Shown: positions 3,590 to 56,316 of the stretch, piece by piece
Position numbering within the stretch: the first letter of the stretch is position 1
How the letters are laid out: each line of letters opens with the position of its first letter
Notes under the pieces: model-generated
The model's input: only the letters and a program-made list of their open reading frames with translations
Told to the model about the DNA's origin: nothing
The model's database searches: none
Made by a program: the position numbers and the translations under genes
Source of the DNA: Ornithinibacillus sp. 4-3
GTDB lineage: Bacteria > Bacillota > Bacilli > Bacillales > Amphibacillaceae
Reading direction: 5' to 3'
DNA length: 64,000 nt
Assembly (NCBI RefSeq): GCF_040958695.1
Contig: NZ_CP162599.1
Location: 3,568,001 to 3,632,000, forward strand

Positions 3590-3768
3590 CTCTTATCAAG
3601 AGTGGTGGAGGGGATAGGCCCTATGAAGCCCAGCAACCTTGGAGTAAATAATTTTACTTTTAATGGTGCCAAATCCTACAGATTAATCGCATTAATCTGG
3701 AAGATAAGAGGAGGATTCGTGACCTTACCATACGACCTCTTCTTATTCAGAAGAGGTCTTTTCTTTTT
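3590..3768 (+). promoter_or_regulatory. SAM-I (S-box) riboswitch with terminator
   Basis: The leader holds the hallmark S-box blocks: CTCTTATC opening stem P1 (3590-3597), AGAGTGGTGGAGGGG, then GAAGCCCAGCAACC, GGTGCCAAATCC and the closing GATAAGAG (3703-3710). A rho-independent terminator follows, GACCTCTTCT pairing with AGAAGAGGTC (3734-3758) with a T-rich tail. When SAM is abundant the aptamer forms and transcription stops before the sulfhydrylase gene. A 63-codon open frame across this region is an artefact of the structured RNA. Confidence 0.95.
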
Positions 3769-3833: not shown

Positions 3834-5501
3834 ATGTCAACATTTCATTTCCAAGATCAAGATACTATTCTACTTCATGGTGGGCAGGTCCCTGATCCAG
3901 TAACAGGATCTCGCGCAGTACCTATTCACCAAACAACATCCTATGTATTCCCGGATTCAGAGCATGCCCAAGGCGTATTCGCATTACAAAAAACTGGAAA
4001 TATTTATACTCGTATTACCAATCCAACGGTGGATGCATTTGAACAGCGTGTAAGTTTACTGGAAGACGGGGTTGCAGCTGTCGCAACTTCTTCTGGTATG
4101 GCGGCAATTACATTTGCCATTTTAAATATTGCAAGTGCTGGAGATGAAATTGTTACAGATAGTAACCTATACGGTGGAACATATAATTTATTCGTCCATA
4201 CCTTGCCTAGATATGGAATCAATGTAAAATTCGTTGATGGATCGGATCCTGAAAACTTTAGAGAAGCTATTACGGATAAAACAAAAGCAGTTTATGGGGA
4301 GACCATTACAAACCCAAGCTTGTATGTTTTTGACATTGAGGCTGTAGCTGATATTGCTCATGAGCATGGGATTCCTCTTATTATTGATAACACATTCGCA
4401 CCTGGAATCGCGCATCCATTAAAATGGGGTGCAGATATTGTTGTTCATTCTGCCACAAAATGGATTGGTGGACATGGGAATTCCATTGCTGGAGTTGTCG
4501 TTGATGGCGGAAAATTTGACTGGAGTAATGGAAAATTCCCAGGATTTACAGAGCCAGATGATAGCTATAATGGATTACGCTATGTAGATGTAGGTGCACC
4601 TGCATTTGCTATTAAACTACGAGTACAGTTATTGCGTGATATCGGCGCTTGCTTAAGTCCACATAACGCATTTTTATTGTTGCAAGGATTAGAAACTTTA
4701 CATTTACGAATGGAACGTCATGCGAAAAATACAGAAAAAGTTGTTAAGTTCTTAACAACACATCCTGCGGTAGATTGGGTGAACTACCCTGGCTTAAAAG
4801 ATCACCCATCACATGAGCTTGCACATAAGTACTTTACAGAAGGTTACGGTTCCATTGTTACATTTGGAATTAAAGGCGGTCGTGATGCTGGAAGAAAAGC
4901 AATCGACAATGTGAAGCTATGGTCACATGTTGCAAATGTTGGTGATGCGAAATCATTAATTATCCATCCTGCATCCACTACACATCAACAATTAAGTGCA
5001 GAGGATCTGGAGAAAAGTGGAGTAAATGAAGAATTAATTCGTCTATCTATTGGACTTGAATCTGTAAAAGATATTTTAGAAGACTTGGATCAAGCAATGT
5101 CTAAAGCGGTAGGTATTGAACCTTCGCTTACAAACACCGAAGATTCAGTTACAAAATGGCTAGTACATTCACCATTTGACCGCAGTGAAGGCTTACGCCA
5201 AAAGGTCATTGCAGTTGCTGATATCGACGAAACAAAAGTAGCAGCAGTTAAAAAGGCTGGTTATCAAATAATTGCAGTGGATGCCATCTCTTCTACAGAC
5301 CAAGTTGATGCACTATGGGTCAAAGATAATATCTCAAAAGCTCAACTGACTACATTTACAGAGAAGCAAGGAAAAATCATCTGGGTAGAAAATGAGCCAA
5401 CAGGAGATATCATAAGTGCATTGGGAAGTATACATGACGCTATCGTCTTCTTTAATAAAGATTTATTAGAAGAAATAGTAGAAGCAAGGACAAGTAAATA
5501 A
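3834..5501 (+). CDS. metY: O-acetylhomoserine sulfhydrylase with C-terminal extension
   Basis: A 555-residue protein. Residues 1-430 are a complete MetY-type enzyme: YTRITNPT (58-65), [16 protein letters not shown] with active-site tyrosine Y113, PLP lysine K209 in [12 protein letters not shown], and the large insert (about 226-262, [17 protein letters not shown]) that separates MetY from cystathionine synthases. It makes homocysteine from O-acetylhomoserine and sulfide. The usual family length is about 430. The extra 125 residues ([20 protein letters not shown] onwards) look like alternating beta strands and helices, perhaps a degenerate Rossmann-like fold, with no motif I can name. AGAGGAGG precedes the ATG. 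Control is by the SAM-I riboswitch just upstream. Confidence 0.9.
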
Positions 5502-42773: not shown

Positions 42774-45700
42774 TTAATTATTCTTTCTTGCTCTTCTACT
42801 TGTCATATATAGAATCAAGCCAAGTAGTAAGATTCCTGCACCGATTAACATGATGTTAAATGTGTTTGTTGCTGTATCTGGTAAACTGCCAGATTTATCC
42901 TCATCTTTTGTTGAATCTCCATCTTCCTTCGAACCTTCTCCGCTTACTGGAGTATCATCTTTAGATGGATCAGAATCCCCTGGCTTACTTGGTTCTTCTG
43001 GTTTCTCAGGATCTGTTGGATCTGTTGGATCTGTTGGATCAGTCGGCTCCTCTGGTTTAGAAGGCTCTTCCGGATCTGTTGGATCTGTTGGATCAACTGG
43101 TTCAGTTGGAATGATGAATCCAAAGTCTAGCGTTGGATCATGCTCACCATCCTCTACTAAATGACGAGATACCGCAAACCATGTTGATGAATCAATAGAG
43201 TTGTCATCTCCAACTTCATGTAATGTTGGAATATACTTCTCTAAAACTTTTGCTGATGCTTCACGATCGATTCGTACAATATACGTTTTATCAGCTGGTA
43301 AGTTTTCGAAGATATAGTAGCCATTTTTATCTGTTGTTGTTGGACCTACTTTATTTCCATACACATCTGTTACTGGATTTCCTTCTTTGTCTTGAATTAT
43401 TAATACAACACCTGGAATTCCCTCTTCAGATTCATCTTGAATTCCATCTTTATTGTCATCAAACCATACATAGTCTCCTACACTTACTTTTGCAGGACTG
43501 TTCACAATGACAACATTGCTCGAATCTTTTACATCGACAGAGCTCACATAGCCTGGAACTTCTTCTTCAACAACGGTGTAAGTAATTTCTTTACCGTTAG
43601 CAAAGATGTCTAATTCAGTAAAATCAGCCTGCCAATTGTTCGATTCGTTCAATTTTGCAGAATCTACTTTTTCTCCATCTGCTAATAAATTAACAGTAAT
43701 AGAGTCTGGACGTACTTCTTTATAATTAGCATCGTTCCATTGCTTCACTACATTAATACTAGTTTGTTCTGGTGTATAACTGTTAGTGATATTCATGCCA
43801 TCAATTGCAGTTGAATAACCTTCTACGTTTTCTTCTTGAACGGTGTAAATAATTTCTTCGCCATTCTCAAGTTTTGGCTGATTAGTAAATTCAAATGTCC
43901 AATCTGTATCTGCTGTTACTTCAACAGAATCCACTTCTTTTCCATTTGCTAACAGGTTAACAGTAATGGAGTCTGGACGTTTACCATCTTGATTATCGGC
44001 ATCATCCCATGTTTTTGATCCTGATAGGTCAGTTACTACTCTAACAAAACCAAAATCTAGAGTTGGATCACGCTCTTCGTCTTCTGTTAAGTGACGAGAC
44101 GTTGCTTCCCATGTAGATGAATCTACGGTATTGTCTTCCCCAGCTCCTTCAAGCGTTGGTTCGTAATCTTGTAGAGCCTCTACTGATTTTTCACGATCAA
44201 TGCGAACCGTATACGTATGATCTGCTGGTAAATCATCAAATGTATACTTACCATTTTCGTCTGTTGTAGTTGGACCTACTGGCTCTCCATATACATTTGT
44301 TACTGGGTCACCATTTTCATCCACTAGTTCAAGAACAACACCTTCTAATGGAATGTCTGTATCATCTTGTAAACCATCTCTGTTTACGTCGATCCATACA
44401 TAATCTCCTACACTTACTTTCTTAGACTTCACAAAACCGAAGTCAAGTGTTGGGTCACGCTCTTCATCTTCTGTTAAATGACGAGATGTTGCTTCCCATG
44501 TAGATGAATCTACGGTCTTGTCGTCTCCAATTTCATGTAACGTTGGCTCGTAACCTCTTAATACTTCTTTTGATGCCTCACGATCAATTTTCACTACATA
44601 TGTGTTATCAATCGGTAGATTATCAAATGTATACCAACCATCTTCATCCGTTGTTGTTGGTCCTACTGGATTTCCGTATACATCTGTTACTGGGTTACCA
44701 TTCTCGTCTTCAAGTGTTAAAACAACACCTTCAACTGGAATATCTGTATCATCTTGTAATCCATCTCTATTTTCGTCGAACCATACATAGTCTCCTACAC
44801 TTACTTTTGCAGGACGGTTGGTGATGGTGAATCCATCTATTGCATTTCCGGTTACACTTTCTGTTACATAACCTTCTGTTGTTTCTTCTTGAATGGTATA
44901 AGTGATCTCTTCACCTGCTGCGAATTTTGGTACATCTGTAAATACAAATGTCCAGTCTGTTTCTGCTGTTACTTCAACAGAATCTACCTCTTCTCCATTT
45001 GCTAACAAGTTAACAGTGATGGAGTTTGGACGCTGATTATAGTGATTGTTACCGTCTTTCCAAACCTTTTCACCCTCAACATCAATGACTTCAGGCGTAT
45101 AGCTATTTGTTATATCGTAACCTTCATACGTGACATCATATCCGTCTACAGCTTCTTCTTGAATCGTGTATTCAATCTCTTCACCAGCTTCGTTCTTAGG
45201 TAAATCAGTAAATCCAAAGTTCCAGTCATCTTCTGCTGTTACTTCAATGGAATCTACTTTTGTTCCGTTAGCCATTAGGTTTACAATAATAGACTCTGGG
45301 CGAATACCATCCTGATTATCAGCATCTTCCCATGTTTTGCTTCCTGCAATATCTACCTGCTCTGGAGCATGGTGGTTAGTTAATATAATATTCCCATGAT
45401 CTTCATCATTAACAATGACTTCATAACCTTCAGGAACAGATACTTCTTTCACTGTGTAGTCAACTTCAACTCCGCCATCACGATACATATCTAGCTCTGT
45501 CCACGTATGCATCCAATCATTTTCTGCAGATAGAACAACAGCATCCTGGATGGGTTCATTATCAGCATACAATTGTACTTCAATCTGTTCTGGACGAATG
45601 CCATCTTGATTATCAGCATCGCTCCAACCTTTTGTCACTGTAACAGATGTCTCTTCAGGAGTGTATGCATTTGTAATAACTACATTCTCCACATCATTTC

Positions 45701-48700
45701 CTTCAATTGATGTTGAATATGCTGGAACTGATTTTTCTGTTACACGATAGCTAATTTCTTGACCTTCCGCACGGTTTCTTGGTAAATCTTCAAAAACATG
45801 CTGCCAATTATTTGCTTCATTCAATTCTTCTCTTGCAACAATCTCAGATCGATCATTAATAATCTGTACTGTTACACTTTCTGGACGGACACCATCTTGA
45901 TTGTCTGCATCTTCCCAGATTTTTTCAACAGGAATGTCTATTGTATCTGGTGTTCGGTTATTCGTAATCAATATGTTGCCATTGTTTTCTGTTACAGTTG
46001 GTTCATCATAACCTTCAGGAATTGATTCTTCTTCAACAGTATACTCAATTACTTCGGCGTCAGCGTAAACGTCTAGCTCTGACCATGTATAGCTCCAGTC
46101 ATTTTCTTCGGAAAGAAGAACAGGGTTACCTTTAGCTTCTCCATCAGCATATAACTGAACTGTTACATTATCCGGACGAATACCATCCTGGTTATTGCCA
46201 TCATTCCAGCCTTTAATAACTGTTAGCGACGTTTGTTCTGGTGTGTAACTGTTTGTGATGACAAATCCATCTGCTTGCTTCGTAATTTCTGTTGAATAGT
46301 CTTCAACGTTAGCCTCCACTATGCGATATTCAATCGGATTGCCTTCACGATTTTCTGGTACATCCTCAAATACATGAGACCAGTTTCCATCTTCATCTGC
46401 AGCTATTTCTTGCGTTGCTACAACTTGATTCAAATCATTAATTAAATGAACAATAATACTATCTGGTCGGTTACCATCTTGATTATTTCCATCATCCCAT
46501 GCTTTTTCTACTGGAATATCAATCGTATTTGTTTCACGGCTATTTGTAATTGTAATAGCTCCATGATTTTCATCATTTATAGTAGATTCATAGTCAGCTG
46601 GAACATCGACTTCCTCAACAGAATATACAATTGCTTCTCCACCATCACGGTTTGCATCTAGTTCAGTCCATGTATAAGACCAACCATCCGCAGCTGTGAC
46701 AATTACTTCGCTACCTTCTGGCTCTCCATCCGCTAATAACTGAACTCTAATGAAATCGGGACGTAAGCCATCTTGATTATTTCCATCATCCCAGAACTTA
46801 TTAACCGTTACTGATGTTTGTTCTGGCGTATGTTCATTCGTTACAGTAAATGTTCCATCACCATTGTTTGAAATAGAAGTGGAATAATCTTCTACCGTAT
46901 CCTCTGCTACGCTGTACACAATTTCTACGCCATCACGATATTTTGGTAGATTCTCAAAAACATATGACCAATTACCATCTTGATCAGCTGTGATTTCTAC
47001 AGTTTCTATCACATTTGATCGATCATCATAAAGATGAATAGTAATGCTATCTGGACGTACTCCATCTTGGTCGTTAGCGTCATCCCATACTTTTTCCACT
47101 ATAATATCCGTTACTTCTGGTGTGTAGCTGTTTGTGATGGTATAACCATCCTCGATATTTCCAGCAATATCACTTTCGTATTCTACTGGAACATTAGATT
47201 CTTCAACTGTATAGTCAATCTTACTTCCGTCTTGATATTCATCTAAATCGGTAAACGAAGCTTCCCAACTATTTGATTCATTCAAGACTTTAGATTGCCC
47301 AGTCGGTTCACCATCTGCCAATAGATTTACAGTAATGGAGTTTGGACGTTTGCCATCTTGGTTGTTTGCGTCTTCCCATACTTTTTCTACTGGAATATCT
47401 ATCTTGCTTGGAGTATAGCTATTTGTAATAACAAATCCTTCTTCTACATCCCCAGCAATATGACTCTCATAACCTTCTGGGGCATCGACTTCTTCAACTG
47501 TGTAGGTAATTTTACTTCCACTATTATCAAACTCTGGCAGATTAGTAAATTCACCTTGCCAATTACTTTCGTTATCTAAAATTATATTATCTACATCTGC
47601 TTCATTACTATTTGCAAATAGCGCAATTTCAATGGATGTAGGGCGGTTACCATCTTGATTATTCGCATCCTCCCAGATTTTTTCAACAGGGATATCAATG
47701 CGTGATGATGTAAATGTATTTGTTACTGTTAAACCATTCTCTGAAATAGATTTCTCAAAGTTCGTAGGAACTTCTACTTCATCAACAGTATATTCGTACG
47801 CATTGCCATCAATATCTGTTCTGTCTAAATCAGACCAAGTATATTCCGTTTCTCCATCTTCTAAAGTTACAGGATCTCCAATGGCTTCACCATCTCTATA
47901 TAATTGAAGCTCGATAGAGTCAGGTCTTTGATTTTCTCCACCCTGCCATTCTTTTGTTCCTGTGACATCGATTTTTTCTTTCGTATTTTCGAATCCGACT
48001 TCTACAATATTTCCATCATTGTTACTATAAGCTTTATCTACTACGATTTCTATTTCGTCTTCAGATAAAACATAACCTTCTGGCGATGCTTCTTCTTTTA
48101 GATAATACGTTCTAAGTGGTAAGTTTCCAATTTCAAGAACACCATTTTCAGTTATAAAAGCTTCTTCTTGCGTATATTGAACTCTTTCACCATTTAGGTC
48201 ATACCATAGAGTAAAGGTTGCTTCATTATTTTCGATTACTTCATCTTCTTCGGAATCGATTTTTGTAACTTTTAAAGCCCCTCTATTTGAAGCCCATTCT
48301 CCACCTGCACTAGAGAATTGTCTAGCACTTATTTCACTTGACTCTATAGATTCTTGATCAATAGCAGTTCCATCTAATGAGATGCGATTATTAATTTGAC
48401 CTTCTGTTGTTGTTACAACAGTTGTATATTTTAAAACTAAGGTGTCTTGTAAATCTTCTGTCATACTAATAGTTAAAATATTTTCACCGTTGTCTGTTGT
48501 GCTTACATCAAGTGTATAATCCGTTTCTTCTAGAGCATTATCTAAGTCCTGTGCTTTATAAACTTCGAGACTACCTTCTAAATAAACATGGCCCTCACTG
48601 ATAGTATCTGTAATCACAGCGTTTTTAATAATTGATAGACTTTCATTGACTGTAACTTCCCACTCAACTTCATCGCCGGTGAACACACGATTACCTTCTG

Positions 48701-51700
48701 CATTAACTGCTCGTTTAGCTAAGAAGTCATCATGCTCATTATAATCAACAGTTGCTGAATAACGATATTCTACACCTCCAGCTGTAACTATTGCGTTGTT
48801 CGTATAGCTTTCTGCTGAGATATCTGGTACAGAAGTTGTAAATTCAACCACATATCTTTCTGTTACCTCATTGTTAAAGATTATCGTGAACTCGTCACCA
48901 TCAACGACTAATGAATAATTACTTGGATCCAATACTGGTCCAGTAATTTCAGTTGTACCATTAGGATTTACGTTATAAACTGATACCTGGATACTATCTT
49001 CATCGATATTTCCAGCATAAGCTAACGTATCTGTTATAGTTACATTTGGTCCCAGGTTTTGTTCTTGATAGTTTGTGTATAACTGCCAAGCAATTTTTCT
49101 TTCGCTACCGCTCACCCAACCATTTACTGCATTACCTTCATCATTAAAATGAACTAATCTTCCTTCCTTTTTACCACTGTTCCAAGAGTCTAATCGTACT
49201 CTTTGGTTATCATTATCTTCTGTATCAATTGTATGTCCATTCTCAGTTGTCCCATCAAATTCAGCTTTGTTTCTGTAAATCTCAGCTTCATTATCATTAG
49301 AATGTGGAATCAATACATTGTCATCAATTTCTAATTGTGGATCATAGGAGGTTGTATAATTGACTACTAGTTCTCCGTTAGCTATCTCCCGGTTAAAGGT
49401 AATAGTAAATCCATTTTGATATCCTTCTTCAATTGGAGAAAGAGTATAATCTACTCCCTTTTCAAGTTCCTCTTCACCAAGTTTAATATTAACGCTATCT
49501 GGTAACAGGATTAACCCATCATTCGTGAAAGTATCTGTGATAACAAATCCAGAATTGATGTCTTCCCTTATTGGATTGACATTCAAACGCCAGTTCATTG
49601 TCTTTTTACTGTAGTCAATGTCTCCAACTGAACTCTTAGTATAGGTATTGCCATTTGGGTTTATGGTAACTTCTCTATCTTCTCCACCTTCACCAACGCC
49701 ATCACCAGACATTCCAACAGTATTTGTGAAAGCACTAGATGTGAAATTCTCAATACTTGTGGTATATCTAATAGTAATGGTTTCAGTACCTACATCTGTT
49801 AAGTTAATTGTCAATAAAGTTTTCCCATCTCCTGCATCTGTTATGCCAGGAGTTATACTAGAGAAGTCAGTGCCTTCATCACCTGTGATTTCAACATTTC
49901 CTGCCTCAAGGGATAGGCCAGCTGGTAACGTATCCGTTACAGTAACATTACCTAATGGATGTTTTGCTTTATTGACTGTGACTTCCCAAGTAACGGTTCT
50001 GTTTTCATAATCTACGTTGCCCGCTTCTACTTTTTCAAGAATAGGGTCTCTTTCAATATTAACCGTTGCGTCATCACTATTTAATTCATCTTCACCATCA
50101 TAAAGTGTTGCATCATTTTCGAAGCCATTATTTTCTAAGTATTCACCGCTATTTACTGCTTTCCAATCAACATCTGTATTAAATTTAATACGATAAGCGT
50201 CATTTTGTCCTAATGCACCTAAGTTTATTGGGAATGTCGTAAATGTATTCTCGTGAGCAGTATCTTCTATCCAGTTACCTCCACTTTGTATAATTCTAAC
50301 CACTTCGATACTGTCTGAATCTATTTCTAAGCCAGCAGGTAGAGTATCCTCTACAATAGCCTCGTTAATTAAACTTCCATTTTTATTCACATCAATTTGC
50401 CATTGAATAACATCGCTGTCCCCAACTTGCCAACCATTCTTTTCAATTGGATTACTTCTTGTCAATCCACCAACGGTAGCATCAGCAGGTAAGCTTGTGT
50501 CTCCATATTCAAAGGTTGCATCATTGTTAAAAGATTCTTGAGAGTAATTTTCAATAGTTGTCTTATATTGAATACGATAGCCATTAAAAGGTGCAATTAC
50601 CCCCAAATCAATTGGAAATTCAGAAGGATTTAGCGTTGATGTTACATTAGAACCTTCTCTTATATCTCCATCATAGCCAACACTAAGCTCATGGATAACA
50701 AAATCTCTAGCTTCACCTAATCCAGCAGGAATATTATCCGCTAATGTTGCTTCCGTTATTTCTTCATCATTTGTATTAATAACATCAATCGTCCAGGTAA
50801 TTTCTCTTGCATCATGTTGGCTATCTGGATTTCCTTCTTTATCAATACCACTATGATCTAGATTAGGGCGTGCAGTAACAGTAATGTTGTTTTCATCACC
50901 ATCGCTGAACGGAATCTCTTGTTTAATATTTTCTCTGAATTTATCCAGATTGAACTCTAAACCAAGATTAACAAATCCGTTTTGAACATCAGATGTTTCA
51001 ATACCCTCATTGAAGGCAAATTTTAAAACACCATTCTCAACATGGTAAGTACCTACATTTGTTCCTTCAACAATGAGATCTTGAGTTGGTGTTGTAACCA
51101 TCTTAAATGCATCAGAAAGAGCAACCTCTGCTGTATCTCCAGCCTGTGCACCTCTTCCTTCTGTATTCCAGTTAAATCTAAGGTTTGCAATAGTGCCTTC
51201 ATTTATGGAAATAACATCTCCGTCAGAGATAGTCTCCCCATCAATTGTAAGAGATTCAAATATAAAGATATTCCCCAAATCTCTTTGAGGTCCAACATTC
51301 TGAGCCTCAACTTCTACTTCTTCATCCTCTACATTCTCATCAGATGCTTCTACTGCATCCTCCTCTTCTACTGTAGTGTTCTCAGAATTAGATTTGTCTT
51401 CTTCCTCCGTTACAGCTTCATCTTCTGTAGCTGATTTTCCAGAGTCAGAACCCTCTTCCTCATCTACTTTCTCTTCTGTTGATCCTTTTCCAGTTTCCTT
51501 TCCTTCTTCTGGAGTTTCATCATCAACAGCTGGTTGGTCCTCTGCAGGAATTTCCTCTCCCTCAGTTCCATCCTCTTCACTTCCGTTATTCTCATCCTCT
51601 GCACCATTTTCCGATGCACTTCTTGCAGATGGATTTGTTTCAGAAGCGTCACTATCTCCCTGTTCTTTCACATTATCAAGCTCTTGGACTTGTTGATTTG

Positions 51701-51806
51701 TTTCATTCAGAGCTTGCGCTTGTGCAACAACCACACTAATTGGACTAAATATCGTTTGACTGAAAATCAGTATTACGATAAAAAAGGCGCTTAACTTCTT
51801 CAGCAT
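42774..51806 (-). CDS. Giant LPXTG-type surface adhesin with Cna-B and SdrD-B repeats (3010 residues)
   Basis: A sortase-anchored wall protein. A signal peptide (about 1-31, ending AQAQA) is followed by an acidic Glu/Asp/Ser-rich region (about 35-170) and an adhesin-like first domain (175-300). About six DUF11-like beta-sandwich repeats follow to about 1175, each with a form of ITDTLPAGL, then one SpaA-like domain (about 1180-1285). Thirteen Cna-B repeats, most with K-W-x-D-x-x-NQDG-x-RP and TVEE, span about 1287-2335 and 2595-2770. Three SdrD-B modules (SVGDYVWFDENRDG type) lie near 2335, 2465 and 2775. A Pro/Thr/Asp/Glu stalk leads to LPDTA (2975-2979), a membrane helix and RRARKNN. Lys, Glu and Asn/Asp placement suggests isopeptide bonds. 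The likely role is adhesion; the ligand and sortase are unknown. Confidence 0.92.
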   Translation of the reverse strand: MLKKLSAFFIVILIFSQTIFSPISVVVAQAQALNETNQQVQELDNVKEQGDSDASETNPSARSASENGAEDENNGSEEDGTEGEEIPAEDQPAVDDETPEEGKETGKGSTEEKVDEEEGSDSGKSATEDEAVTEEEDKSNSENTTVEEEDAVEASDENVEDEEVEVEAQNVGPQRDLGNIFIFESLTIDGETISDGDVISINEGTIANLRFNWNTEGRGAQAGDTAEVALSDAFKMVTTPTQDLIVEGTNVGTYHVENGVLKFAFNEGIETSDVQNGFVNLGLEFNLDKFRENIKQEIPFSDGDENNITVTARPNLDHSGIDKEGNPDSQHDAREITWTIDVINTNDEEITEATLADNIPAGLGEARDFVIHELSVGYDGDIREGSNVTSTLNPSEFPIDLGVIAPFNGYRIQYKTTIENYSQESFNNDATFEYGDTSLPADATVGGLTRSNPIEKNGWQVGDSDVIQWQIDVNKNGSLINEAIVEDTLPAGLEIDSDSIEVVRIIQSGGNWIEDTAHENTFTTFPINLGALGQNDAYRIKFNTDVDWKAVNSGEYLENNGFENDATLYDGEDELNSDDATVNIERDPILEKVEAGNVDYENRTVTWEVTVNKAKHPLGNVTVTDTLPAGLSLEAGNVEITGDEGTDFSSITPGITDAGDGKTLLTINLTDVGTETITIRYTTSIENFTSSAFTNTVGMSGDGVGEGGEDREVTINPNGNTYTKSSVGDIDYSKKTMNWRLNVNPIREDINSGFVITDTFTNDGLILLPDSVNIKLGEEELEKGVDYTLSPIEEGYQNGFTITFNREIANGELVVNYTTSYDPQLEIDDNVLIPHSNDNEAEIYRNKAEFDGTTENGHTIDTEDNDNQRVRLDSWNSGKKEGRLVHFNDEGNAVNGWVSGSERKIAWQLYTNYQEQNLGPNVTITDTLAYAGNIDEDSIQVSVYNVNPNGTTEITGPVLDPSNYSLVVDGDEFTIIFNNEVTERYVVEFTTSVPDISAESYTNNAIVTAGGVEYRYSATVDYNEHDDFLAKRAVNAEGNRVFTGDEVEWEVTVNESLSIIKNAVITDTISEGHVYLEGSLEVYKAQDLDNALEETDYTLDVSTTDNGENILTISMTEDLQDTLVLKYTTVVTTTEGQINNRISLDGTAIDQESIESSEISARQFSSAGGEWASNRGALKVTKIDSEEDEVIENNEATFTLWYDLNGERVQYTQEEAFITENGVLEIGNLPLRTYYLKEEASPEGYVLSEDEIEIVVDKAYSNNDGNIVEVGFENTKEKIDVTGTKEWQGGENQRPDSIELQLYRDGEAIGDPVTLEDGETEYTWSDLDRTDIDGNAYEYTVDEVEVPTNFEKSISENGLTVTNTFTSSRIDIPVEKIWEDANNQDGNRPTSIEIALFANSNEADVDNIILDNESNWQGEFTNLPEFDNSGSKITYTVEEVDAPEGYESHIAGDVEEGFVITNSYTPSKIDIPVEKVWEDANNQDGKRPNSITVNLLADGEPTGQSKVLNESNSWEASFTDLDEYQDGSKIDYTVEESNVPVEYESDIAGNIEDGYTITNSYTPEVTDIIVEKVWDDANDQDGVRPDSITIHLYDDRSNVIETVEITADQDGNWSYVFENLPKYRDGVEIVYSVAEDTVEDYSTSISNNGDGTFTVTNEHTPEQTSVTVNKFWDDGNNQDGLRPDFIRVQLLADGEPEGSEVIVTAADGWSYTWTELDANRDGGEAIVYSVEEVDVPADYESTINDENHGAITITNSRETNTIDIPVEKAWDDGNNQDGNRPDSIIVHLINDLNQVVATQEIAADEDGNWSHVFEDVPENREGNPIEYRIVEANVEDYSTEITKQADGFVITNSYTPEQTSLTVIKGWNDGNNQDGIRPDNVTVQLYADGEAKGNPVLLSEENDWSYTWSELDVYADAEVIEYTVEEESIPEGYDEPTVTENNGNILITNNRTPDTIDIPVEKIWEDADNQDGVRPESVTVQIINDRSEIVAREELNEANNWQHVFEDLPRNRAEGQEISYRVTEKSVPAYSTSIEGNDVENVVITNAYTPEETSVTVTKGWSDADNQDGIRPEQIEVQLYADNEPIQDAVVLSAENDWMHTWTELDMYRDGGVEVDYTVKEVSVPEGYEVIVNDEDHGNIILTNHHAPEQVDIAGSKTWEDADNQDGIRPESIIVNLMANGTKVDSIEVTAEDDWNFGFTDLPKNEAGEEIEYTIQEEAVDGYDVTYEGYDITNSYTPEVIDVEGEKVWKDGNNHYNQRPNSITVNLLANGEEVDSVEVTAETDWTFVFTDVPKFAAGEEITYTIQEETTEGYVTESVTGNAIDGFTITNRPAKVSVGDYVWFDENRDGLQDDTDIPVEGVVLTLEDENGNPVTDVYGNPVGPTTTDEDGWYTFDNLPIDNTYVVKIDREASKEVLRGYEPTLHEIGDDKTVDSSTWEATSRHLTEDEERDPTLDFGFVKSKKVSVGDYVWIDVNRDGLQDDTDIPLEGVVLELVDENGDPVTNVYGEPVGPTTTDENGKYTFDDLPADHTYTVRIDREKSVEALQDYEPTLEGAGEDNTVDSSTWEATSRHLTEDEERDPTLDFGFVRVVTDLSGSKTWDDADNQDGKRPDSITVNLLANGKEVDSVEVTADTDWTFEFTNQPKLENGEEIIYTVQEENVEGYSTAIDGMNITNSYTPEQTSINVVKQWNDANYKEVRPDSITVNLLADGEKVDSAKLNESNNWQADFTELDIFANGKEITYTVVEEEVPGYVSSVDVKDSSNVVIVNSPAKVSVGDYVWFDDNKDGIQDESEEGIPGVVLIIQDKEGNPVTDVYGNKVGPTTTDKNGYYIFENLPADKTYIVRIDREASAKVLEKYIPTLHEVGDDNSIDSSTWFAVSRHLVEDGEHDPTLDFGFIIPTEPVDPTDPTDPEEPSKPEEPTDPTDPTDPTDPEKPEEPSKPGDSDPSKDDTPVSGEGSKEDGDSTKDEDKSGSLPDTATNTFNIMLIGAGILLLGLILYMTSRRARKNN

Positions 51807-52241: not shown

Positions 52242-53285
52242 TTATAGATCGTCAAATCCGTTTAAATCACTTGTTTTTGTATAGTTTCTTGCTTTTTGTT
52301 CAAAGAAGTCTGTTTTAGTTCCATCAAAATTATCTACATAAGCGCGAATCCATTTCATTGGATTCTCTGTATATTCTGGGTAAATCTCGCTTAAGCCTAG
52401 CATGCGGAGCATTTTATTCGCGCGATATTTCACATAACCTGCCATCTCTACTAAATCGATACCGTCTACATCCTTTAATACGTAAGCAGACCATTCGATT
52501 TCGTTTTCTACAGATGTTTTAAATGTATCGTATACCCACTCTGTAAATTCTGGTGTGTTATATTCTGGATTCTCTGCTAATGTTGCGCGGAATAATTCAG
52601 AAATAAATCTTCCGTGCTCCAGTTCATCACGGTTAATATAACTAACCATCGTAGATGTACCAACCATTTTATTATGGCGTGCTAGGTTATAGAAAAATGC
52701 AAATCCAGAATAGAAGAACATACCTTCTAGCAACGCTGTAAATACCATTGTTTTTAAAATATTTTCAAGTGTTGGTTCTTCAACAAAGGCATTGTATTGA
52801 TTTGTCACATGCTCATTTCTTTTTTGTAACACAGGATCTTTTCTTCCTAGCTGGAAGGATTTATTTTGCTGATTTAGTGTTACAACAGAAGATAAAACAT
52901 AAGAATAAGATTCATTATGCACAGCTTCTTGTTGAGCAATAACTGCCATAATCGATTGCACAGATGCATCTGTTGCATAAAGTGATAATAATAAAGCTGT
53001 TCTTGTTTGTGGTGCATCTAATGTAGATAGAAGACCAATAATCTTTAAATAAGCTTCTTTTTCTGCATCCGTAAGTGTTTCAAATTGCTTTACATCAGAT
53101 TGCATATTAATTTCATCCGCTTGCCAGTAATTTCCGAGCAAGCGTTTATACATTTTATGCCAATGTGGATATGCAATATCATTCCAATTTAAAATCCCAC
53201 TAGATTTACCACCAAAGAGACCTGTTGATTTATTAGGAAATAACGGCTCTAAAGTTTTCGCACGTTCAAGCAAAAGTTTTGACAT
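52242..53285 (-). CDS. nrdB: Class I ribonucleotide reductase, beta (radical-generating) subunit
   Basis: A 347-residue R2 protein. All metal ligands are present: D90 (STLDAPQ), E120 and H123 (QQEAVHNESY), E187 (LLEGMFF), E221 and H224 (DELEHGRF). The radical tyrosine is Y127, four after H123, so this is a tyrosyl-radical enzyme and not a Phe, Leu or DOPA variant. It stores the radical that starts nucleotide reduction in the alpha subunit. AGAAGGAG precedes the ATG, and the start overlaps the flavodoxin gene end. The metal (Fe-Fe or Mn-Mn) cannot be read from sequence, but the neighbouring flavodoxin hints at Mn. Confidence 0.93.
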   Translation of the reverse strand: MSKLLLERAKTLEPLFPNKSTGLFGGKSSGILNWNDIAYPHWHKMYKRLLGNYWQADEINMQSDVKQFETLTDAEKEAYLKIIGLLSTLDAPQTRTALLLSLYATDASVQSIMAVIAQQEAVHNESYSYVLSSVVTLNQQNKSFQLGRKDPVLQKRNEHVTNQYNAFVEEPTLENILKTMVFTALLEGMFFYSGFAFFYNLARHNKMVGTSTMVSYINRDELEHGRFISELFRATLAENPEYNTPEFTEWVYDTFKTSVENEIEWSAYVLKDVDGIDLVEMAGYVKYRANKMLRMLGLSEIYPEYTENPMKWIRAYVDNFDGTKTDFFEQKARNYTKTSDLNGFDDL

Positions 53286-53700
53286 CTTCTAAAACTCCTT
53301 CTAGCCAGCTTTCAATATATGATTCCTGGTACCCTCTTGGAGATTGTTCGATTTTCAAGCCTTCCCATTTACTATTGTAAAAGTGAACAAGCTTATCTAC
53401 CGCTCTACAAAAATCTTGTTCTTCTCCAAATTGGGTATCTCCCGTTCCAAATACTGCTACATTTTCTGGTTTATAACCAATTTCTAAGATAAAATCCTTT
53501 ACTTCTTCTGGAGTACATCCATAATCCCATGTGAATGTTCCTAGAAAGATATAATCGTATTTCGAAGCATCCACATAGTGATCAATGCCAATTCGGTGTG
53601 TATCAACATCCATACCATCTTCTCTTAATTGCTCGGTAATGATTTCTGCTACTTCCTGTGTATTGCCACTATAAGATAAATACGCTACGATAGCCCTCAA
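53266..53700 (-). CDS. Flavodoxin encoded inside the ribonucleotide reductase operon
   Basis: About 144 residues. AYLSYSGNTQEVAE is the FMN-phosphate loop; LGTFTWDYGCTPEEV and FGTGDTQFGE are the two flavin-contacting loops of short-chain flavodoxins. I take TTG 53700, which overlaps the TGA stop of the alpha-subunit gene (TTGA); GTG 53712 is possible. Its place between alpha and beta genes is where class Ib operons carry nrdI, the flavodoxin-like Mn activator. A true flavodoxin here may reduce or activate the beta-subunit cofactor. Confidence 0.85.
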   Translation of the reverse strand: MRAIVAYLSYSGNTQEVAEIITEQLREDGMDVDTHRIGIDHYVDASKYDYIFLGTFTWDYGCTPEEVKDFILEIGYKPENVAVFGTGDTQFGEEQDFCRAVDKLVHFYNSKWEGLKIEQSPRGYQESYIESWLEGVLEDVKTFA

Positions 53701-55931
53701 CTTTGACACCACTCACATTCCTCAACATCATTTGAGGTTGATCTAACATAATAAGTTGTTTTTAATCCTTCATTCCAAGCTTGTAAGTGAAGATCTAAGA
53801 GAACAGATGCACGAATCGTATTTGGCACGTATAAATTAAAGGAAATACTTTGATCGATATGCTTCTGACGTGCTGCATTTTGTTTAACAGACCATCTTTG
53901 GTCTACGATATATGCAGAACGACGATAAATATCATACGTATTATGGTCTAAATCTGGTGCTGTTGTTGGGATACGGAAATCCTTCTTCTCTTCGCTGTAA
54001 AATGGCTTAAATACTGGGTCAATACTTGCTGTTGATCCAGCAATCATTGCTGTTGTAGAGTTCGGTGCAACTGCCATTAAATAAGCATTACGCATACCGT
54101 TCTCTGCTACGTCAGCTGCAAGCTCTTGCCATTCTGCTGAGTCATAATTTCTTTCTGTGAAGTAAGCTCCTGACTCCCATTTACTACCTGCATATGCTGG
54201 GTAGCTTCCTTTTTCCTTACTTAATTCCATGCTATTTTTAATCGTTAAATAAGCAATTTTTTCATATAGCTCATCTGCGTATGCGACAGCTTCATCTGAT
54301 TCCCAGCTAATGCCTTTTAGAGCTAATAGGTGGTGCCAACCAAATGTACCAAGTCCAATCGCACGATATTTATGGTTTGTTAATGTCGCTTGCTTGATTG
54401 GTAATGTATTAATATCAATAACATTATCTAGCATGCGAACCTGGATTTTAATTAAACGATCAAGTACTTCTGCTGTTACTGCTTTACCTAAGTTAATAGA
54501 ACTTAAGTTACATACAACATAATCACCTGATTTATATTTCTTCACAATCATATCTTCATTTTCAACATATTCTTCGATAAATTGGGATGGAGACTGATTT
54601 TGTGTAATTTCTGTACATAAGTTCGTGCAGTATATCATTCCTTTTTCAGGGTTACTGTTCTTACGATTTACTTCATCACGATAGAACATAAATGGTGTTC
54701 CTGACTCTAACTGTGAGCGTAAAATACGTTTCATGATATCGATTGCCGGAACAATTTTACGAGATAAAAATTCATTTGCGATACATGCTTCATATTTCTG
54801 ACGCCAAGAACCTGTGCCTTTTTCTTCATCATAAAAGTCTTCTAAGTCAAAGCCCATCACTTGTCTTACTTCATGTGGATCAAATAAATGCCAATCACCA
54901 CGAGCTTCCACTTGCTCCATGAAATAATCCGGTAAGCATACACCTGTGAAAATATCATGTGCACGCATACGTTCATCCCCATTATTAAGCTTCAAATCAA
55001 GGAATGCCTCAATATCACGATGCCAAATATCTAAGTAAACAGCGATAGCTCCTTTTCTCGTACCAAGCTGATCTACACTTACTGCAGTGTTATTTAACTG
55101 TTTGATCCAAGGTACAACCCCGCTTGACATGCCTTTAAACCCTTTAATCGAGCTTCCACGTCCACGGATTTTACCCATGTAAACACCGATACCTCCACCG
55201 TTTTTCGATAAGTTTGCGATATCTGTATTACTATCATAGATAGATTGTAAATTATCATCTACAGTATCGATGAAGCAGCTGGATAGTTGACCATGTGTTT
55301 TACCTGCATTTGTCATTGTTGGTGTTGCTACAGTCATATATAAGTTGCTCAATGCCCAGTAAGCTTCTTTTACAAGCTCACTACGCTTCTCTTTCTTTTC
55401 ATCCTGCATCAAGTACATTGCAATAATCATCCAACGTTCCTGTGGCAGCTCATATGTGTTTTTATCATGATCAATTGCTATATAGCGAGTTGCAATTGTA
55501 TAAAGTCCAAGGTAATCAAATAATAAATCACGTGCTGGATCAATTACAGTTTGAAGGTCACGAATTTCTTCTTCTGTGTATTTTTCTATAAATGCTGTTG
55601 TGTAAATGCCTTTTTTCGTTAATGTTGTAATTAATTCAAAAAAGTCTCCATATTTTTCGTCTGCATCATAACCGCGATGCTTTGCCGCTTCCTTATAAAG
55701 ACGTAATAAATAAATACGACTTGCAAAATAAGTCCAATCCGGATTTGCCTCATCAATGTTTTCTAAAGCATTCTTCACTAACGTATCTGTTACTTGATCG
55801 TCAGTTACTGTATCTGTAACCACACGTAGTGCTTTTTCTATGTAATCTTTCGTATCTATACGTAATCCCTCTGCTGCTTGGTTAATAATAGATGTAATGT
55901 GTTCCTTGCTTAAAACAGTCGCTGTAGTCAA
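53697..55931 (-). CDS. nrdA: Class I ribonucleotide reductase, alpha (catalytic) subunit
   Basis: About 744 residues. Active-site features: SSCFID (first redox cysteine, near 229), NLCTEI with the thiyl-radical cysteine plus essential Asn and Glu, VVCNLSSINLG with the second redox cysteine, TYYVRST with the paired radical-transfer tyrosines, and the C-terminal CEWC shuttle. It reduces ribonucleoside diphosphates. The usual ATP-cone opening (KRDG region) is missing, although the following helix (INQAAEGL) is kept, so dATP activity control may be lost. I prefer TTG 55931, which has GAGGGAG nine bases upstream; ATG 55949 has no ribosome site. Control is by an upstream NrdR-type promoter and cobalamin riboswitch. 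Confidence 0.93.
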   Translation of the reverse strand: MTTATVLSKEHITSIINQAAEGLRIDTKDYIEKALRVVTDTVTDDQVTDTLVKNALENIDEANPDWTYFASRIYLLRLYKEAAKHRGYDADEKYGDFFELITTLTKKGIYTTAFIEKYTEEEIRDLQTVIDPARDLLFDYLGLYTIATRYIAIDHDKNTYELPQERWMIIAMYLMQDEKKEKRSELVKEAYWALSNLYMTVATPTMTNAGKTHGQLSSCFIDTVDDNLQSIYDSNTDIANLSKNGGGIGVYMGKIRGRGSSIKGFKGMSSGVVPWIKQLNNTAVSVDQLGTRKGAIAVYLDIWHRDIEAFLDLKLNNGDERMRAHDIFTGVCLPDYFMEQVEARGDWHLFDPHEVRQVMGFDLEDFYDEEKGTGSWRQKYEACIANEFLSRKIVPAIDIMKRILRSQLESGTPFMFYRDEVNRKNSNPEKGMIYCTNLCTEITQNQSPSQFIEEYVENEDMIVKKYKSGDYVVCNLSSINLGKAVTAEVLDRLIKIQVRMLDNVIDINTLPIKQATLTNHKYRAIGLGTFGWHHLLALKGISWESDEAVAYADELYEKIAYLTIKNSMELSKEKGSYPAYAGSKWESGAYFTERNYDSAEWQELAADVAENGMRNAYLMAVAPNSTTAMIAGSTASIDPVFKPFYSEEKKDFRIPTTAPDLDHNTYDIYRRSAYIVDQRWSVKQNAARQKHIDQSISFNLYVPNTIRASVLLDLHLQAWNEGLKTTYYVRSTSNDVEECEWCQS

Positions 55932-55987
55932 CTGAGTCAACTCCCTCATTTAAAATAAATAGTATGAAACAATGATTTTTTTCCATG

Positions 55988-56020
55988 AAAAAAGCCGTTT
56001 ATCAGCTTAAAATAAACAGC
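55988..56020 (-). terminator. Expression-platform terminator of the cobalamin riboswitch
   Basis: On the minus strand GCTGTTTAT pairs with ATAAACGGC around TTTAAGCTG and runs into TTTTTT. It lies between the B12 aptamer and the alpha-subunit gene, so B12 binding probably favours this stop. Confidence 0.85.
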
Positions 56021-56103
56021 ATAAAACGACAGAAATATTCTAGTTTGCACATACCTATCTCCATCGTCTCATGTTCTTACGCCCCGAAGAAATGAAACCA
56101 AAA

Positions 56104-56270
56104 GTTATGGCAGGTCTCCTGACTCATGCTTCTCTTTACTAAGGTCCTTCCCATATCTTGATTGATACAGTGGATTTTTCCTTTTCATCAGCACTTACAG
56201 TTGCGGGGACAGTTCCAGATTTAGCTGGATTCCCTTTTAAGATGGCTTAACCATCACCTTAACTCATAAC
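56104..56270 (-). promoter_or_regulatory. Cobalamin (B12) riboswitch before the class I RNR operon
   Basis: Read on the minus strand: GTTATG (P1, 56270-56265), AAAAGGGAATCC, CCAGCTAAATCTGG, CTGTCCCCGCAACTG, then the B12 box AGCATGAGTCAGGAGACC (ending near 56110) and the closing CATAAC (56109-56104). These are the conserved blocks of the adenosylcobalamin aptamer in the right order and spacing. An intrinsic terminator follows at 55988-56020. It controls a reductase that does not itself use B12. Confidence 0.95.
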
Positions 56271-56316
56271 ACAATATATAGTATTTAATTTAGTCAACAT
56301 TCACAATATGTTGTAT
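56269..56316 (-). promoter_or_regulatory. Tandem NrdR boxes overlapping the nrd promoter
   Basis: Minus-strand promoter TTGTGA (56306-56301), 17-bp spacer, TACTAT (56283-56278); transcription would begin near 56270, the first base of the riboswitch. Two 16-bp near-palindromes overlap it: ACACAATATATAGTAT (56269-56284), one mismatch to the NrdR consensus, and TCACAATATGTTGTAT (56301-56316), three mismatches. Their centres are 32 bp apart, the usual NrdR spacing. Confidence 0.8.

Follow-up and report, generated by a model that had tools for sequence, protein, structure and literature searches.

We conclude, with a probability of about 0.9, that a transcription-terminating AdoCbl riboswitch shuts off the class I ribonucleotide reductase (RNR) operon of Ornithinibacillus sp. 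4-3 when coenzyme B12 is available, and that the B12-dependent reductase NrdJ then supplies the DNA precursors. The window, i.e. the whole stretch of 64,000 nucleotides that was analysed (positions 3,568,001 to 3,632,000 of NZ_CP162599.1), carries the riboswitch and the operon on its minus strand, and nrdJ lies elsewhere in the genome. We infer from the sequence that the riboswitch binds cobalamin and changes expression, and that B12 represses the class I operon from the anatomy of leader and operon together with published relatives.

A sequence-only reading of the window had placed a B12 riboswitch at 56104..56270, followed by a terminator and by the alpha, flavodoxin and beta genes of a class I enzyme, and had proposed the Rfam Cobalamin covariance model as a check. 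A cmscan search of the window returned a match to this model (RF00174) at 56276-56092 on the minus strand, directed toward the reductase genes, with 116.4 bits (gathering score 31.5, E 1.6e-28), and the proposed feature lies inside it. The terminator was found at 56020-55994, and the downstream genes were borne out by NCBIfam and Pfam models. The main features are as follows.

56092..56276, minus strand: cobalamin riboswitch aptamer (RF00174), cmscan 116.4 bits, model positions 1-189 of 189
55988..56020, minus strand: intrinsic terminator and T tract, from a terminator search
53697..55949, minus strand: class I ribonucleotide reductase alpha (nrdE; PRK09209 family), NF006665 1310.8 bits (cut-off 1057)
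53266..53712, minus strand: RNR-associated flavodoxin (TIGR01754), 179.4 bits (cut-off 163.8)
52242..53285, minus strand: class I ribonucleotide reductase beta (NF007184), 429.5 bits (cut-off 310)

The ends of the alpha, flavodoxin and beta genes overlap, and the next long minus-strand open frame starts at 51806, 435 bases beyond beta. Alpha also matches TIGR02506 (579.3 bits, cut-off 341), and beta is also above the PF00268 cut-off. The nearest solved chain to beta by sequence is 2rcc_A (328.8 bits), and the two have in common in the alignment an E-x-x-H-x-x-x-Y stretch, which we take to be the motif of metal ligands and radical tyrosine. Alpha together with a ferritin-like beta makes this a class I RNR, in which beta is predicted to bear the radical. 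A class Ib operon (NrdEF with NrdI) was considered and rejected, the scores being 396.5 of the 750 bits required for TIGR04170 and 166.2 of 355 for TIGR04171, as was the flavodoxin as an NrdI (PF07972, only 21.3 bits, cut-off 27). As the class Ib models fall below their cut-offs, plain class I, with no Ib label, is the most fitting name for the enzyme. The true start of nrdE may be the TTG at 55931. By eye, the first ATG (55949) is without a ribosome site, and GGGAG followed by this TTG fits better; several of the relatives' alpha matches start at residue 7 and others earlier.

The host genome is a single contig of 3,694,176 bases in which two RNR large-subunit genes were found, the alpha gene of the window and a gene at C1:2003175-2005727. 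The product of the second, 853 residues long, matches PRK08115 (vitamin-B12-dependent reductase) with 1638 bits (cut-off 854) and also NrdJ_Z (TIGR02504) with 589 bits, and the nrdJ gene that had been predicted to lie elsewhere in the genome is thus present. A transposase-like gene pair, recognized by eye, lies directly downstream of it (L047 5533-7091). The genome also includes one PduO-type cobalamin adenosyltransferase (175.8 bits) and two cobalamin riboswitches, the second of which (87.6 bits) precedes genes for a DUF4430 lipoprotein and an ECF transporter S component. For the latter, the nearest NCBIfam S-component model is that of the folate family, far below its cut-off, and the two proteins are plausibly a B12 uptake pair. 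In G009, a relative with a different class II enzyme (RTPR), the RTPR gene is likewise followed by a lipoprotein of similar features and an S component. The sequence-only reading had also suggested a search for cobalamin uptake or synthesis genes; an adenosyltransferase and a putative uptake pair under the second riboswitch were found, and the synthesis marker cobI/cbiL was not found in the genome with the one model used. Because no cobI/cbiL was found and the putative uptake pair stands under a riboswitch, the organism probably scavenges B12 rather than making it. The switch proposed in that reading was to depend on O2 as well as B12, and no feature of the leader relates to oxygen. NrdDG is the class III (anaerobic) reductase, and the sole observation that touches on oxygen is that no NrdD was found in the genome with one model; NrdJ would therefore be the one reductase here that is not known to need oxygen.

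The co-occurrence of riboswitch and class II enzyme was surveyed in the host and 80 relatives, 81 genomes in all. PRK08115 was above its cut-off in 61/81 genomes and in pieces in two more (G029 and G079). A further two (G007 and G008) have another class II enzyme above the TIGR02504 cut-off, and RTPR was above the TIGR02505 cut-off in G009 and G061 when searched for in the 18 genomes without PRK08115. Splits or interruptions at recurring model positions (~190, 265, 481 and 652) were seen in the NrdJ matches of about 20 of the 81 genomes, a pattern expected of inteins or introns (for example in G013, G016, G028, G029, G030, G032, G046, G056 and G079). Full-length class I alpha was present, among the matches listed, in 75/81 genomes at 76 loci, and the six genomes for which no full-length class I barrel match was listed (G020, G026, G052, G055, G064 and G079) do not enter the co-occurrence counts; in G026 the class I alpha match is interrupted. 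Riboswitch counts come from the stretches upstream of the 75 alpha loci outside the window, which were scanned with Rfam, and a cobalamin riboswitch lies upstream in the direction of the operon at 52 of them.

Among these 75 genomes, a riboswitch precedes class I alpha in 52/61 of those with a class II enzyme compared with 0/14 of those in which none was found (Fisher p 1.5e-9, a test that ignores kinship). Hence, no class I operon in the survey was seen with the riboswitch unless its genome had also yielded a class II enzyme. The nine of the 61 genomes that have a class II enzyme and no class I riboswitch (G080, G044, G014, G069, G021, G047, G007, G008 and G061) mean that the pairing is not obligatory. 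In one of these, G080, which has NrdJ, alpha is followed directly by a short beta frame of 265 residues with no flavodoxin gene between (L159). No cobalamin riboswitch at all was found, among the matches listed, in seven of the 81 genomes, six of them with no class II enzyme found (G003, G004, G010, G012, G018 and G025) and the seventh, G061, with RTPR. G009 was considered as a case of a riboswitch lacking a class II partner and this was ruled out by the AdoCbl-dependent RTPR found there. In G009 and G036, a class I operon of a different type (NrdH-like, NrdI-like, NrdE) likewise stands under a cobalamin riboswitch (L099 and L077), and G036 has two class I alpha genes with a riboswitch upstream of each. 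Near the nrd riboswitch of two loci, a second cobalamin riboswitch was noticed upstream on the opposite strand (L256 717-893, minus; L274 106-356, minus).

Public genome contigs yielded 67 loci with the alpha protein, which overlap with the 81-genome survey and are not independent of it. In the 20 that were scanned, a riboswitch was upstream in 14, including those of Ornithinibacillus gellani, Virgibacillus halodenitrificans, Lentibacillus halodurans and Heyndrickxia coagulans, and none was found among the scanned loci of Oceanobacillus manasiensis, O. sojae, O. neutriphilus, O. profundus, Virgibacillus proomii and V. alimentarius.

The pairing of riboswitch and operon could simply reflect descent within the Bacillales and be uninformative on isozyme exchange, and there is something to be said for this, as the genomes come from one family (49/81) or one order, the Bacillales, and few independent pairs on the tree are well supported. 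A quick maximum-likelihood tree was built from 69 of the 76 class I alpha loci (leaving out G016, G040, G057, G078, G028, G058 and the second locus of G036), in which 17/66 inner branches were well supported and for which the program gave long-branch warnings. On this tree at least 11 changes are required for riboswitch status and at least 9 for class II status. The 4-5 independent pairs on well-supported branches never run in opposite directions, though so few pairs cannot attain significance (median sign-test p 0.25). The repeated changes, the absence of the riboswitch in 14/14 genomes in which no class II enzyme was found, and G009, where a class I operon of a different type is paired with a different class II enzyme, RTPR, all argue against descent as the whole explanation, and we consider it improbable.

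The other alternatives concern how the riboswitch works and what it binds, and here the details of the leader become relevant. The window leader was compared with those of 52 relatives (53 leaders in all), and the following further elements were distinguished.

56204..56208, minus strand: CCCCG loop of the aptamer, complementary to the downstream CGGGG, read from the sequence
56082..56086, minus strand: CGGGG loop of a hairpin after the aptamer, proposed kissing partner of CCCCG, from CGGG conservation
56066..56098, minus strand: P13-like hairpin presenting the CGGGG loop, arms GUUUCAU / AUGAGAC, read by eye with a putative role
56021..56072, minus strand: alternative hairpin B (AUGAGACGAUGGAGAUA / UAUUUCUGUCGUUUUAU), from minimum-energy folds

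The terminator-like hairpin at 56020-55994 consists of 10 pairs followed by TTTTTT and lies 72 bases past the aptamer. Three terminator-like sites were found in an 801-base region, for which shuffles gave 0.3 on average; two of the sites overlap each other at this position, and the third is on the plus strand inside the aptamer. In the strict, shuffle-controlled search from which the count is taken, a terminator above one score threshold is present in 47/53 leaders, the window included, compared with 11/530 shuffles, and the remaining six leaders fall below the threshold; a looser, uncontrolled search gave 52/52. The end of the stem is ~45 and ~63 bases ahead of the two candidate nrdE start codons, so the ribosome site is not obviously covered by the hairpin. 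Were the riboswitch to act mainly on nrdE translation initiation or on RNA decay, the terminator-like hairpin would be incidental. Some cobalamin riboswitches do act on translation and, in the parts of the published work that were available, reporters carrying the Caulobacter btuB and metE leaders show translational shutoff. Nevertheless, the recurrence of a hairpin and T tract between aptamer and gene, and the distance of the stem from both start codons, make this quite unlikely, and termination is the preferred reading.

As to how termination might be controlled, L5 and L13 kiss in cobalamin riboswitches, and we take the CCCCG loop to be L5 and the CGGGG loop to be L13. CCCG was matched in the aptamer of 52/53 leaders, the sole exception (L068) having a C run without the G, and CGGG is found within 100 bases past the aptamer in 53/53 leaders compared with 215/1060 shuffles. 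Binding of AdoCbl would stabilize the pairing of the CCCCG loop in the aptamer with the CGGGG loop, which is presented by the hairpin that follows the aptamer; with ligand, the CGGGG-loop hairpin would stay closed and the terminator ahead of nrdE would halt transcription. Without ligand, this hairpin would open, its 3′ arm would join alternative hairpin B, and read-through would follow. The 3′ arm of the L13 hairpin is common to hairpin B, the partner strand of which sits just before the terminator. In 46/53 leaders the native arms of hairpin B form a stronger pairing than the median swapped arm does (mean -16.7 vs -11.1 kcal/mol). A clean antiterminator made of the CGGGG strand and the 5′ arm of the terminator was considered and rejected, as it beats the median swapped partner in only 32/53 leaders; in the window this pairing is weak (-5.2 kcal/mol). 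The P13-like hairpin is missing from the minimum-energy folds of the window leader, where other pairings occur in its place; folding the leader in full gives hairpin B and the terminator in one structure. Prevention of the terminator by hairpin B is therefore a tentative last step of the proposed scheme, and the antiterminator a putative one.

A degenerate aptamer, or one that responds chiefly to a different form of cobalamin, with control of the class I operon by coenzyme B12 lost or altered, is very improbable given that all 189 model positions are matched with few non-standard pairs and that 116.4 bits lies inside the span of the 52 relatives' leaders (93.6-129.8 bits), though a score cannot decide ligand class.

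The leader appears to include a second input. NrdR senses dNTP/ATP levels, and one NrdR match was found in the genome (TIGR00244, 211 bits). Using an NrdR box consensus of 16 positions, two NrdR-like boxes were recognized, 32 bases apart, and the second overlaps the first bases of the RF00174 match.

56301..56316, minus strand: NrdR-like box 1, 13/16 to the consensus
56269..56284, minus strand: NrdR-like box 2, 15/16 to the consensus

The host nrdJ is likewise preceded by two NrdR-like boxes, scoring 13/16 and 14/16, with the same 32-base spacing. A pair of boxes 30-33 bases apart is found at the start of the aptamer in 50/52 leaders of riboswitch-bearing relatives (16/1040 single-base shuffles), in 23/23 class I stretches without a riboswitch when the whole 1.4-1.6 kb was searched (36/460 shuffles), and upstream of nrdJ in 20/20 sampled NrdJ genomes (20/400 shuffles); the background is 12/424 window tiles of 600 bases. 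Because box pairs precede both the class I operon and nrdJ, it is likely that NrdR acts on the two alike and that B12 acts on the class I operon alone. NrdR would act earlier than the riboswitch, on the promoters of both operons and through the tandem boxes. No consensus promoter matching at 9 of 12 positions or better was found at the boxes, and a weak TTGTGA-17-TACTAT pair (56306-56278) was noticed only on visual inspection. The available parts of PMC4428469 give a 32-base spacing for tandem NrdR sites in mycobacteria and do not describe the pairing of NrdR with a B12 riboswitch before one gene. Our search of the literature, largely of sources outside the subscription journals, found no description of NrdR boxes directly before a B12 aptamer.

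Elsewhere in the window, the only other Rfam match above its gathering score is a SAM riboswitch at 3590-3710 on the plus strand (79.5 bits). Downstream of it is encoded a protein of 555 residues (3834-5501), similar by eye to O-acetylhomoserine sulfhydrylase, and a similar-looking enzyme is encoded on the opposite strand (3414-2230). After the nrd operon and on the same strand, 42774-51806 (minus) encodes a protein of 3010 residues that has collagen-binding, 13 Cna_B and SdrD-like stretches and, by eye, an LPDTA-like sorting motif at the C-terminus.

The basic isozyme logic is already in print. Streptomyces belongs to a different phylum from the host, and a B12 riboswitch of the Streptomyces coelicolor nrdABS operon was reportedly described by Borovok et al. 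in 2006. In the accessible portions of PMC4991794, control of Streptomyces nrdABS by AdoCbl is covered, and it is cited also in PMC5962746; as far as these portions go, S. coelicolor resembles the host in having a cobalamin riboswitch before a class I RNR operon and an AdoCbl-dependent NrdJ in the genome, and differs in that the operon includes the nrdS regulator, whereas here there is a flavodoxin gene. Priestia megaterium, according to the available text of PMC8390425, is a bacillus that likewise has NrdJ and a cobalamin riboswitch on nrdEF, as well as one on metE; unlike the host, for which two cobalamin riboswitches and no cobI/cbiL match were found, it makes B12 and is reported to have eight. 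For Bacillus methanolicus, the same riboswitch class was found before an RNR operon (nrdAB) from RNA-seq leaders (PMC4342826); the available part of that account does not include NrdR boxes or co-occurrence with NrdJ, both of which are given for the host here. In the delta-proteobacteria, B12 elements were placed on nrdDG in 2004, with B12 repressing the B12-independent reductase if NrdJ is present (PMC545781); in the sections available, the isozyme logic is the same, but the repressed enzyme is NrdDG and not class I. Since these cases are published, the locus is a further case of a known arrangement, in one more bacterium and many of its relatives. The survey adds three points: all 14 genomes in which a class II enzyme was not found lack the riboswitch on the class I operon, G009 offers a case with RTPR, and the NrdR-like boxes hold a nearly constant position directly before the aptamer.

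Taken together, these features suggest, tentatively and at somewhat short of even odds, a two-input RNR module in the Bacillales. In it, NrdR boxes would stand on the operons of both isozymes and the B12 riboswitch directly after the second class I box only, to be gained or lost with any AdoCbl-dependent reductase (NrdJ or RTPR), and the loop that docks on ligand binding would also feed the hairpin that decides termination. The rule in the survey runs one way: where no class II enzyme was found there is no riboswitch (0/14), and the nine exceptions are of the other kind. For Ornithinibacillus sp. 4-3, given that the search for NrdD found none, B12 might be a requirement of anaerobic growth. 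With cbiL likewise not found, it would be B12 from outside the cell that determines which of the reductases provides the DNA precursors, and the choice of an essential enzyme would thus be tied to a vitamin from the environment.
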